Positions 14,351 through 60,328 of a stretch of DNA of 64,000 nt are shown here, piece by piece. Position numbers and translations under genes: made by a program. Below the pieces are notes generated by a model. That model saw only the letters and a program-made list of their open reading frames with translations, did not search any database and was not told the DNA's origin. Numbering within the stretch: position 1 is the first letter of the stretch; each line of letters opens with the position of its first letter. This DNA is from Candidatus Gastranaerophilales bacterium. Its GTDB lineage: Bacteria; Cyanobacteriota; Vampirovibrionia; Gastranaerophilales; UBA9579. The DNA lies in contig JAQVCB010000004.1 in NCBI GenBank assembly GCA_028689995.1, positions 1 to 64,000 of the forward strand, written 5' to 3'.

Positions 14351-14377
14351 TTTTAATAAATAGTTCAAAAGTTTTCC

Positions 14378-14845
14378 ACGTTTGAATCGGTAAATTTGCT
14401 AATTCGTCGGAACAATGTCTAACTATAATGAATTATATAGATCGTTGTTCCTCCTCACCCACAAGGGGCAGAGCAAATTTACCTGTATATGTCGCTCATA
14501 AGAACTGCACAAAACTTTCATATACTACAAAAATTACCTGTTGCTGACAATTATTTTTCATTTATTTTAATTTTGTTTTAGTTAGAAGCTGTCTTGTTAA
14601 AGTTGAATCGCCTTGCCAAGCAAGCCGCTTGCAACTTTAACCGCAGTCCAAAAATCGAGCCTGTATTTATATCATAATTTGATTTTTACATTGTTAGCCA
14701 GACAGGCTCTTAGAAGTTTTTAAAATGCAGAAATTCAGGTTTTTATAGTCAAGATAGTTATATTGTGTGGATATTTATCCGCAACAGGTAATTTTCTACG
14801 TCGATGAAAAGTTTTTAGCATTTCTAATTCGCTTTTTGTTAAATA
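14378..14845 (-). repeat. E1: long modular palindromic element (containing 121-bp insert E1b)
   Basis: Helices GGTAAATTTGCT(14389-14400)/AGCAAATTTACC(14472-14483) and AAAATTACCTGTTGC(14530-14544)/GCAACAGGTAATTTT(14781-14795); homologous to E2 and E3. Confidence 0.85.
14589..14716. mobile_element. E1b: 121-bp insert (14589-14709) inside E1 with 7-bp direct repeat TTAGAAG (14582-14588 and 14710-14716)
   Basis: E2 reads gttttagTTAGAAGtttttaaaatgcag without the insert; insert ends CTGTCTTGTTAA...TTAGCCAGACAGGCTC are imperfect inverted repeats. Confidence 0.75.
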
Positions 14846-14875
14846 TTAAACAATTTAGAATCTTCTAGTTTCAAG

Positions 14876-14983
14876 GAGTCATCTTGAGCGAAGCGGTAGC
14901 GAAGTCGAAAGATCTTACCAAATTTGAAGTAATTTTATAATGTTGGTAAGATACTTCGATTTCGCTCGGCATGACATTTAAAA
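14876..14983. repeat. S1: REP-like hairpin repeat
   Basis: gtcatcttgagcgaagcggtagcgaagtcgaaagatcttacc...ggtaagatacttcgatttcgctcggcatgac; same as S2. Confidence 0.8.
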
Positions 14984-16391: not shown

Positions 16392-16485
16392 AATTATATT
16401 AAAACGAGTTTGTATTTCCTAAGGCTTTAAATAATCCTATATAAAATAATTTAATCATCTTATCAGCAACGAGTATATAGAAGTA

Positions 16486-30783: not shown

Positions 30784-31007
30784 AGTAGTGGAAAAATACA
30801 AACTGATAAATAATTAAAATCTAGAATTTAATTATTTATCATACACATGTCATTGCGAGGATTTCGGAGAAATCCGTGGCAATCTTACCAGTTTTCGCCT
30901 GTTATCTTCTGACATTGTGGGCAAAATCCTTCGACTTTACTTCATTTAGCTCAGGATGACATTTTAAGGATTTTTCGTTTTTATCAGTTGCAATTTAACC
31001 ACTACCA
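30784..31007 (+). repeat. R2: intergenic repeat with TAGTGG-type terminal inverted repeats
   Basis: tagtagtggaaaaatacaaactgataaa ... ttttatcagttgcaatttaaccactacc; matches R3 inverted. Confidence 0.85.
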
Positions 31008-31047
31008 CAATATTAATACCAATTTGAATACTAAATCGTTATTTATA

Positions 31048-31487
31048 AATATTTCAGCCTGTCAAACAGCAGTAATAGCTTACTAGAAATGCTAGAAACC
31101 TTTCATCGGCGGAAAAATAATCCCTTGCGGACAAAACATTATAAACACTTCAGTCGTGAAATAAAAAACTTCAAACAATCGCATTTCTCTTCAGACTCTC
31201 AAACAAAGAAGATAAATAGAGAGCAAAAGATTTATCGGCAAGGGATTATTTTGTAGCATATGAAGGTTTTGTGCAGTTCTTGTAGGCGGTCAAATTAAAG
31301 CAAGTCGGCACTGTCTGAATGCGATAGCGGGAGTGGAGAAAAGTCGAAATGGCTGCGGTCAGCAGGCAGTGTAGACTTTTCGTAACTCGTTCAGGATTTT
31401 TCAATATACTATGTTAGAAGGTATCTTGCTTTATTAAAAATCCGAGTTTGCCTGACATTCGATAAGTTTTACAGGCTGAAAATATTA
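31048..31487 (+). repeat. E4: long modular palindromic element with its own terminal inverted repeats
   Basis: TCAGCCTGTCAAAC ... GTTTTACAGGCTGA ends; inner helix AAAATAATCCCTTGC(31114-31128)/GCAAGGGATTATTTT(31238-31252). Confidence 0.8.
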
Positions 31488-31892
31488 TTAATTTTAGACA
31501 TAAAAATACCCCGTATTTGGAACGGGGAAGAAGAGATCATGAGGCAGAATTTAAATTCTCGTTAGAATTTAAATTTTTATTTTTCCTTATTGTAAGGAAT
31601 CTTTTAAAAAATTTTAAATAACAACCTCTAACTCAATTGGACTTAATTAATATAAACTTCAAACTCAATATTAATAATAAATCTTCAAAAAAAATTGAAT
31701 ATTAGTCATGAGAATTAGACTTTATTACTCTTTAGAATTATTTTTTGCCAAAAACCTAGATAAATTGTCATTATTACACTCTTTAATTCTAGTTTTACTT
31801 TAAATTATAAAGAAAATTATAATTATAAAAGTTTAAAAGCATTATTATACCACTTCAAAAATGAATTTGGGATTTTAACAACAAATAAAAAA

Positions 31893-32037
31893 TGGTATTC
31901 GGTAGTAGGAGCGTTATTTTCGGAGGCGATGTACGGTAGTGGGAGTGTAAAAAAACTGAAGCTGCTGCGATCAGCAGGAGCTGGAGGTTTTTAATAACTC
32001 GTTCAAGCCTTCGAAAATATAAACTCGTTTTAGTATA
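31893..32037 (+). repeat. E5: structured element with nested duplicate internal-loop motifs
   Basis: CGGTAGTAGGAGCG(31900) and CGGTAGTGGGAGTG(31934) paired with AATAACTCGTTCAAG(31993) and TAAACTCGTTTTAG(32020). Confidence 0.75.
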
Positions 32038-32146
32038 ACAATATTATTAGCTTTAATATATTTTAAAATACTGAATAATCCTTGATAAAAGATTTTGAGT
32101 ATTTTAATGTCTGAAATATGGCAAATTCATTGATTTTAGACAGGCT

Positions 32147-32596
32147 CTAAGTTATAAAATCAAAAATGCTTGAATTATTATTGCTGCTTGATGAGGAATA
32201 ATTTGAAAAGAGACTGGTTTGCGTACTCGCAGTATCAAATAATGAAGAAGTAGTTGTCGTATTATTTTCTGATAACGCAGAACTAAAAAGACTAAGCTGT
32301 TGTCGTTTTAACGACTCTGGTGATAACCCCATGCTACTTATTATACCTGCAGGTGTATTTTTATAAGTTTCCAACTCTTCATAGCTTATCCCATCACTAT
32401 TTGTATCAATTTTGTCATATGAATCAACAATATCTAACACTGTATCCGAAGGTTCTTCGCCTTGCGCAATAGCATTAGCCAGAGTGCTTTTTAGATCATT
32501 TTTCGTGATATTGACTTTTCCATCTTTAAATTCTTGTATCTGCTGACTAATAGCATTAGCATCCTGAGCAGATGAACTTTGCACCGATCCCACCAT
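32147..32596 (-). CDS. EF-hand motif hypothetical protein
   Basis: DKIDTNSDGISYEELETY EF-hand-like loop; Ser/Asn-rich C-terminus. Confidence 0.6.
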   Translation of the reverse strand: MVGSVQSSSAQDANAISQQIQEFKDGKVNITKNDLKSTLANAIAQGEEPSDTVLDIVDSYDKIDTNSDGISYEELETYKNTPAGIISSMGLSPESLKRQQLSLFSSALSENNTTTTSSLFDTASTQTSLFSNYSSSSSNNNSSIFDFIT

Positions 32597-42234: not shown

Positions 42235-42289
42235 GGATTTTATTTTACAATAATATTTTTATTTTTTCATATAAAAGCAAAGATTTTTA

Positions 42290-42630
42290 CGTTTGAATCG
42301 GTAAATTTGCTAATTTGTCGGAACAATGTTGAATTATATTCAAATTTATAGCTTATTGTTCCTCCTCATCCACAAGGGGCAGAGCAAATTTACCTGTATA
42401 TGTCGCTCATAAGAAATGCACAAAATTTTCATATGCTACAAAAATTACCTGTTGTTGACAATCTTCTTTCATTTATTTTATTTTTGTTTTAGTTAGAAGT
42501 TTTTAAAATGCAGAAATTCAGGTTTTTATAGTCAAAATAGTTATATTCTGTGGAGATTATATTCAACAGGTAATTTTTTCCGCCAATGAAAAGTTTTTAG
42601 CATTTCTAATTCACTTTTTGCAAGATATTC
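42290..42630 (-). repeat. E2: long modular palindromic element, empty-site copy relative to E1b
   Basis: Helices GGTAAATTTGCT(42300-42311)/AGCAAATTTACC(42383-42394); AAAATTACCTGTTG(42441-42454)/CAACAGGTAATTTT(42564-42577). Confidence 0.85.
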
Positions 42631-42656
42631 AACAATTTATAATCTTCTAGTTTCAA

Positions 42657-42764
42657 GGAGTCATCTTGAGTGGAGCTATAGCGGAGTCGAAAGATCTTAC
42701 CAATTTTGGAGTAATCTTACAATATTGGTAAGATGCCTCGACTTCGTTCGGCATGACAATAACG
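42657..42764. repeat. S2: REP-like hairpin repeat
   Basis: gtcatcttgagtggagctatagcggagtcgaaagatcttacc ... ggtaagatgcctcgacttcgttcggcatgac. Confidence 0.8.
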
Positions 42765-47186: not shown

Positions 47187-47348
47187 GTTAACGAAATCAA
47201 AAAAACAAAGTTTTTTGTTTCGTCTTACGTCCCCATCGTCCAGTGTAAAAATGCCGAAAACTGACCGTTTCCGCCATTTTTCACTTTTGTTAGGGTCGTG
47301 TTGACGAATAGAAAATAAGAGCTGTTTAACTATTCGTCAACACTCCCT
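47187..47348 (-). repeat. E7: compact structured element with terminal inverted repeats and flanking TTGAA
   Basis: GGGAGTGTTAACGAA...TTCGTCAACACTCCC; hairpin GTGTTGACGAATAG/CTATTCGTCAACAC. Confidence 0.8.
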
Positions 47349-47362
47349 TGAAGAGCTATAGA

Positions 47363-49443: not shown

Positions 49444-49690
49444 TTATAATTATTTCGTTAATAGTCCCAATCGTTTAGTGTCAAAGTGACGAAAACTTGA
49501 ATGAGTTACATAATACCTCCAGCTCCTGCGTCATTCCCCGCCATCGGTGGGGCGGGCAGCAACTTCAGCATTATTTCACTCCCGCTATCGTAGACCGTTT
49601 CTGTCACTTTTCACATCCGTTAGGGTCGTGGTTACGAATAGAAAATAAGAGCTATTTAATTATTCGTTACCACTTCGTTATTATAAATCA
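49444..49690 (-). repeat. E6: structured element with two concentric modules
   Basis: GTGGTTACGAATA(49628-49640)/TATTCGTTACCAC(49661-49673); minus strand continues GACCCTAACGGATGTGAAAAGTGAC. Confidence 0.8.
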
Positions 49691-56477: not shown

Positions 56478-56564
56478 AATTTAAAGATACAATAAACTAT
56501 TAGTTATTTATATAAGTATATGCATGGTGGGTTGTAACTAGTACGGTAAAGGTTTTGCGCATGT

Positions 56565-56895
56565 TTGAATCGGTAAAATTGTTAATTCGTCAGAACAATG
56601 TTTAATTATTATGATAATTGCACAATTACTTGTTTTTCCTCACCCCTAAAGGGGCTGGAACAATTTTGCCTGTGTTGTTCGTTCATAACGGATCGTAAAA
56701 AACTTTTTAAGGCGGCGAATTTTTATTAAGCCCCTCCTTTTTTATTTTTTTAATATTTTTAAGGAGAGAGAAAAGAAGTGTTTTGGACTTTTATTGAAGC
56801 AGAGTTGTTTGTTGGCTGGAATAGAAGAAGAGGCTTAATAAAAATCCTTGCTGAAAAAAGTTTTAACGATCCGTAATTCACTTTTTGTAAATTCT
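56565..56895 (-). repeat. E3: long modular palindromic element, divergent helices
   Basis: GGTAAAATTGTT(56572-56583)/AACAATTTTGCC(56659-56670); ATTTTTATTAAGCC(56719-56732)/GGCTTAATAAAAAT(56832-56845). Confidence 0.85.
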
Positions 56896-56901
56896 TTATT
56901 T

Positions 56902-57123
56902 GGTAGTGGTTAAATTGTAACTGATAAAAACGAAAAATCCTTAAAATGTCATCCGAGCGAAACGAAGTGAAGTCGAAGGATTTTGCTAATAATGTCAGAA
57001 GATAACAGGCGAAAACTGGCAAGATTGCCACGGATTTCTCCAAAATCCTCGCAATGACAAGTGGATGTAAGATAATTAAAATCTAGATTTTAATTATTTA
57101 TCAGTTTGTATTTATCCACTACT
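56902..57123 (-). repeat. R3: inverted copy of R2
   Basis: ggtagtggttaaattgtaactgataaaaacgaaaaatcc ... tttatcagtttgtatttatccactact. Confidence 0.85.
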
Positions 57124-60169: not shown

Positions 60170-60328
60170 AGAGGGTGCGGAAAAATTCAATTTTCGAAGA
60201 AAATTAGGATTTTTTAAACCCGACCATTGGAAAGGTGAAACACATGCACAGCCGCGATGAGCGGGTGGGTTTGTGTGTAACTGGATCATGGAATATACGA
60301 GAAAAATTTTAATTTTTCCGTATATTTA
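60170..60328 (+). repeat. E8: member of the structured element family
   Basis: GGGTGCGGAAAAATTC...GGATTTTTTAAACCC then GACCATTGGAAAGGTGAAACACA...TGTGTGTAACTGGATCATGG. Confidence 0.75.

Follow-up and report, generated by a model that had tools for sequence, protein, structure and literature searches.

Nested mobile hairpin elements as the probable origin of a double-looped hairpin in a Gastranaerophilales genome

Introduction

The hairpin E5, at positions 31893-32037 of a 64,000-nucleotide stretch of a Candidatus Gastranaerophilales genome (contig JAQVCB010000004.1, positions 1 to 64,000; hereafter the window), carries one asymmetric internal-loop motif twice along a single stem. How does one hairpin come by the same loop twice? 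The original prediction, made from this stretch alone, named two possibilities: growth by nested insertion, or a repeated tertiary or protein-binding module. From comparisons within the genome and with its relatives, we read E5 as a nest of mobile hairpin elements of a short, protein-free family, with a probability of roughly 0.87.

Results

Layers of the E5 hairpin

The strings that define the motif are all present at 31893-32037: CGGTAGTAGGAGCG at 31900-31913, CGGTAGTGGGAGTG at 31934-31947, the inner AATAACTCGTTCAAG, GCCTTCGAAAATA, and TAAACTCGTTTTAG reaching to 32033. The stretch folds into a single long hairpin (-50 kcal/mol, z = -4.8, equalled by none of 200 shuffles) in which the two internal loops are concentric, so the doubled motif stands as first described. 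The loop pair does recur, as had been claimed, but the real repeated unit is the whole sharp-ended element, and the composite reaches left to about 31846. E5 is very probably built of three layers: a transposon-like wrapper TATAC...GTATA, an outer hairpin element, and an inner element of the same family in the outer apical loop. The features, all on the plus strand, are as follows.

31846..32037, plus strand: whole E5 composite, wrapper TATACCAC...GGTAT with the outer and inner hairpin elements, ending in ...TTTTAGTATA; based on about ten loci and on the relatives' wrapper
31846..31898, plus strand: outermost miniature element TATACCACTTC...AATGGTAT, about 53 bp; relatives have TATACCGCTTC...AAGCGGTAT in the same place
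31899..31931, plus strand: outer hairpin element, left half TCGGTAGTAGGAGCG-TTATTTTCGGAGGCGATG; fused to the right half in the empty copies L023, L024 and L118
31932..32005, plus strand: inner hairpin element TACGGTAGTGGGAGTG...AACTCGTTCA, in the outer apical loop GGCGATG^AGCC; absent from empty copies (own genome, G014, G027)
31943..31946, plus strand: 5' side of helix P1, GAGT, pairing with ACTC at 31997-32000 and followed by a 3x3 loop (31947-31949 / 31994-31996); from the alignment and pair counts
32006..32032, plus strand: outer hairpin element, right half AGCCTTCGAAAATATAAACTCGTTTTA; fused to the left half in empty copies

The outer element sits at the right end of the small TATACCAC...GGTAT unit, the relatives' version of which is TATACCGCTT...AAGCGGTAT, and the inner element is matched by the family covariance model at 31941-32004 (86.6 bits). 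About ten loci with unrelated flanks carry the entire composite at 94-99% identity, which indicates recent movement in one piece; the outermost TATAC...GTATA unit may have provided additional carriage.

Empty and filled copies

Three observations strongly bear out growth by nested insertion: outer elements occur empty, the same kind of insertion is seen elsewhere, and standalone copies have identical ends. The E5 sequence gives 52 match pieces against its own assembly, and at five places there (C96, C61, C130, C139, C56) query positions 1-47 are joined directly to 122-154, that is, the outer element is empty. The empty junction reads GGAGGCGATG followed immediately by AGCCTTCG; in the filled form GGAGGCGATG is followed by TACGGTAGTGGGAGTG...AACTCGTTCA and only then by AGCCTTCG. 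The relatives G014 and G027 have several outer copies in which query 1-47 is followed, about 5 nt apart, by 126-154. Since those of these copies that were read lack the inner unit and have a covarying apex (GGAAACGATGAGTTTTCG), the empty state of the outer element is the ancestral one. In the L013-L016 sub-branch the outer loop carries an inner unit with a different interior; the L001-type and L014-type inner hairpins have a common head and junction, and may represent independent insertions or one diverged event.

The same arrangement is found at other loci of the family. L025 lies in the loop TTGCT^TGGCAA of another family member, the empty form of which is common, and a GGCTGTGGTCAACAGG-type member has L380 in its loop. 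Two copies in G001, L409 (filled) and L428 (empty), have matching flanks; L404 (G021) is the filled counterpart of L412 (G004); and L416 (G031) has a 27-nt unit in its apex. None of the nested pairs has a long target duplication: where the junctions are readable, a duplication of 0-2 bp is possible, a range that is not narrower because the element ends are uncertain by 1-2 nt. The nesting in loops is thus real at these loci. Across the family a preference for apices is suggestive but not significant: of 46 non-redundant insertion sites, 10 fall within predicted apical loops, the background rate being 13.8% (p = 0.09).

If replication slipped locally or switched template, concentric loops could also arise with no insertion of a mobile unit. 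E5-type hairpins do rearrange, since deletion derivatives exist: three copies in the same genome (L019, L020 and L021, on C127, C180 and C129) are without the DNA between AGTAGGAGC (outer head) and AGCAGGAGC (inner 3' arm), and these losses are slippage deletions within the nest. The ends of the inner unit, however, are those of standalone copies at unrelated loci, and the loop is occupied by inner elements with different interiors (L001 and L014 types), so that we consider slippage a very improbable origin for E5 itself.

Family motif, fold and distribution

Members of the family share a head (TGCGRAGCGG-GAGT) and a tail (ACTC-RTTC) with a variable hairpin between them, P1 being GAGC/GCTC in some, and unrelated DNA begins beyond the tail; the recurring loop pair is this terminal motif. 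In the own assembly (2.99 Mb in 201 contigs, 89% complete, 6% contaminated) the pattern GGGAGTGN{30,60}AACTCRTTC has 71 matches, versus 0 for the reversed pattern, well in excess of chance. With the covariance model, 107 copies were detected in the own genome; ten relatives of three families have 20, 20, 18, 13, 12, 5, 5, 3, 2 and 1, and the 29 other relatives searched have none. In its many gut-type genera and its genome sizes of roughly 2 Mb the order resembles Gastranaerophilales, which are non-photosynthetic cyanobacteria. A phylum-wide search with the model, on a sample nearly all from one family and with strict filters, matched the own genome only. A 16-base gapped pattern run over the genome and viral contigs was too loose and gave chance matches only.

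Both of the other hairpins for which the motif had been proposed, E4 and E6, have a match to the model: the E4 core at 31329-31392 (86.7 bits), and a minus-strand match at 49499-49583 (65.2 bits) that is presumably E6. The further family features of the window are these.

31321..31393, plus strand: E4, single copy TGCGATAGCGGGAGTG...AACTCGTTCA, within another repeat-rich stretch
49499..49592, minus strand: E6, third copy TACGATAGCGGGAGTG...AACTCATTC, in the loop of another palindrome and with an apical insert of its own of 26 nt
47250..47290, minus strand: empty form of the E6 host palindrome, GAAACGGTC joined to AGTTTTCG, from comparison with the filled E6 site
16394..16430, minus strand: right-end fragment of an E5-type outer element, 86% over 37 nt
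60229..60287, plus strand: weak family member, probably degenerate (21.1 bits, E = 0.0056)

The commonest core, 64 nt long, has a constant geometry: helices P1, P3 and P4 are of 4 bp each and P2 is of 8 bp. A 3x3 loop, in most cases GNA/GNA, separates P1 from P2; a 2x3 loop, in which GA faces three bases of which the last is A, separates P2 from P3; a 1x1 mismatch stands between P3 and P4, and P4 ends in a loop of 5 nt. Fifteen sequences aligned without gaps have 88% of their cells paired, compared with 40-48% in slid controls. Both sides change in 12 of 20 pairs, and the covariation score of 0.352 (0.185 when shuffled) is reached by 0 of 500 shuffles; the fourth P1 pair covaries only partially (TA 79, CG 5, CA 10). 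This covariation is no proof of selection at the level of RNA, because template switching from arm to arm also makes palindromes covary.

Unit size averages about 75 nt over 53 distinct units, most copies being 57-100 nt and nested ones up to about 130. The smallest units have 27-31 nt, among them TGCGTAAGCGGGAGCACAGCCTCATTC in L416 and those of a triple tandem array in L422. In the latter (G004, 2370-2466) the 27-nt unit TGCGGCAGCGGGAGCTCAGTCTCATTC occurs three times with 4-nt ATGC links, close to the size of the small dispersed repeats (SDRs) of cyanobacteria.

The conserved fold, its covariation and the conserved mismatches agree with the module that had been suggested as the alternative to insertion; the doubling in E5, on the other hand, comes from insertion and not from duplication of a module in place. 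Taken further, this reading would make the hairpin a functional RNA or a binding site for protein, conserved as such, in which both loops are working modules under selection. In its favour are the conserved geometry, the covariation and the GNA/GNA and GA mismatches; against it, the inner module is missing from many otherwise intact outer copies, and copies are dispersed over unrelated loci and within genes. Rfam has no family at gathering score, and a low-threshold scan of 30900-32200 gave no match over E5. Nor did the conservation that had been expected at orthologous loci appear: just upstream of purH there is no copy in the relatives with readable upstream DNA, a weak test in that the neighbouring genes differ. 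The absence fits a mobile element and speaks against an RNA conserved at this locus. We hold two selected modules to be unlikely, and the module reading is unnecessary to explain E5.

Copies within protein genes

The mobile family also occurs in frame within genes of G027, G029 and the own genome, the enzymes concerned being identified by Pfam. In-frame copies lie in aroC (chorismate synthase; L413, 418 aa), where the 20-residue segment is absent from the relatives' genes, in coaX (type III pantothenate kinase; L405), in ddl (D-Ala-D-Ala ligase; L364) and, in the own genome, in tsaD (TsaD; L375) and ubiD (UbiD decarboxylase; L466). Alignments to homologues of solved structure break or gap at the element-encoded residues, e.g. 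TSYEKPPVPVDHSSSLPLRSG in TsaD. At L085 (own genome, C101:11175) the element encodes an N-terminal extension of phosphoglycerate mutase, an insertion that seems to have added coding sequence with no interruption.

We considered whether the element is adapted to coding by way of extra open frames. Open frames are no commoner than in shuffled sequence (2.30 versus 2.42 of six), and the copies within genes are thus survivors of selection, not products of a coding-adapted element.

Proposed history and route of movement

As read from the sequences, copies of the family are precisely present or absent, dispersed, conserved in their folded form and, within genes, inserted in frame. In the history we propose for E5, a miniature transposon-like element would have come to carry an outer copy at its end. 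The apical loop of that copy would then have received a second one, so that the hairpin grew longer and showed two concentric head/tail loops; about ten other places would later have gained a copy of the triple composite. At other loci the family inserts into intergenic DNA, other palindromes, its own copies, and protein genes where the frame stays open. We infer that a putative trans-acting enzyme recognises the folded ends, which would probably then form a hairpin of single-stranded DNA, and that joining duplicates none of the target or about 2 bp at the most. The stretches examined hold no autonomous version with an ORF or enzyme gene between head and tail. Among the routes, single-strand DNA is the favoured candidate, though at somewhat less than even odds; a conventional double-strand transposase is doubtful, an RNA intermediate a little more so, and something else again less probable still.

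Two particular enzymes can be weighed. The elements could be REPs moved by a RAYT transposase (Y1, HUH-type): the own genome has two Y1 transposase genes, GTAG occurs within the heads of E5 itself, and Anabaena is known to have palindromes that contain REP dimers (PMC3733652). The family head, however, is GCGRAGCGG and not GTAG, which is confined to the E5 sub-branch, and no Y1 match was found in the element-bearing G004, G021, G023, G025, G027, G029 and G031 (incomplete drafts), while several element-free genomes have one. The RAYT-type Y1 gene at L031 (1290-1950; own genome, C197) is flanked on both sides by REP repeats of its own, GTAGGTTGGGTC...GACCCAAC, which are unrelated to E5. A RAYT/IS200 link was rejected, as the presence of Y1 does not track the element, and we regard movement by RAYT as improbable.

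Spread by reverse transcription of an RNA copy seems just as improbable. The conserved folded form would suit it, and an RNA route was reportedly proposed by Elhai in 2008 for the small dispersed repeats of cyanobacteria. Against it, no RVT_1 match was found in the own genome, G001, G021, G023, G025, G029 or G031, all element-bearing and all incomplete drafts; the presence of reverse transcriptase does not track the element, and this link was rejected as well.

Discussion

Comparison with known repeats

E5 shows that repeated self-insertion can build very long, loop-studded hairpins, and such hairpins should therefore be checked for empty copies before they are called functional RNAs. To our knowledge, how tiny palindromic repeats such as Rickettsia palindromic elements (RPEs) and SDRs move is still an open question. 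The present family has more than 100 copies in one genome, occurs as empty/filled pairs and within essential enzymes, and has a conserved fold whose ends are defined; this makes both the mechanism and the effects on proteins testable.

The SDRs of Nostoc and its relatives, very small mobile repeats of 21-27 nt, are said to have been described by Elhai et al. in 2008, and some SDR families reportedly insert in their own copies and share a predicted fold. The E5 family likewise inserts within its own copies. Units of 27 nt exist in it, most copies being longer (57-100 nt), and it occurs also within genes. Cyanobacterial small dispersed repeats are cited as SDR in PMC3116915.

RPEs are short hairpin repeats that occur both between genes and, in frame, within protein genes unrelated to one another, with no known enzyme of their own (PMC10969869). 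The E5 family resembles them in being palindromic, hairpin-forming and dispersed, and in lying in frame in the five genes aroC, coaX, ddl, tsaD and ubiD. RPEs, however, measure about 150 bp in Rickettsia and encode conserved peptides, whereas units of the E5 family are mostly 57-75 nt, and their mean of about 75 nt falls short of the 100-150 bp expected of an RPE; the family also belongs to another lineage, has a fixed head/tail motif with variable interiors, and nests in itself. By analogy, it would work most like RPEs (in-frame gene insertion) combined with the self-nesting of SDRs. We do not file it under either, because the comparison is by description and not by sequence, and because the size is unlike that of typical RPEs.

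In the REP/BIME/REPIN systems with RAYT, too, palindromes carry an unpaired tag on one side, and for insertion within palindromes REPs are a published precedent (PMC3733652). The consensus of the E5 family differs in having neither the GTAG nor the CGTC tag, and most element-rich relatives are without RAYT. The double-hairpin elements and GC clusters of fungal mitochondria are mobile hairpins of conserved shape and variable sequence. Compared by description, they are alike in just this combination and differ in being organellar and of other sequence. A literature search for published repeats of Gastranaerophilales gave nothing relevant.

We call this a new family of short mobile palindromes, comparable with RPEs, SDRs and REPs, that unites self-nesting with gene invasion. 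A wider proposal, put forward tentatively, is that it represents a class of protein-free mobile hairpins not described before, in which the folded ends would be the substrate of a putative enzyme and insertion would be blunt, into the elements' own loops and into essential genes, so that nested hairpins of ever greater length might build up in genomes and enzymes might acquire additional peptide segments.

Other repeats in the window

Several repeats adjoin or host the family. Next to the E6 host palindrome lies a palindromic stretch of which there are two 84%-identical copies (47263-47349 and 49593-49679), only one of them adjoined by an E5-family element. A dispersed repeat of several hundred nucleotides with strong internal palindromes occurs at 14368-14976, 42279-42758 and 56560-56890, its copies being 87-90% identical; at two loci (L043 and L091) an E5-family element is inserted in a repeat of this type, after GCTAATTCGT. 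Finally, inverted repeat copies of 91-98% identity, one of them beside E4, lie at 30784-31007 and 56901-57123 and contain the REP-like palindrome GTCATTGCGAGGATTTCGGAGAAATCCGTGGCAATC.
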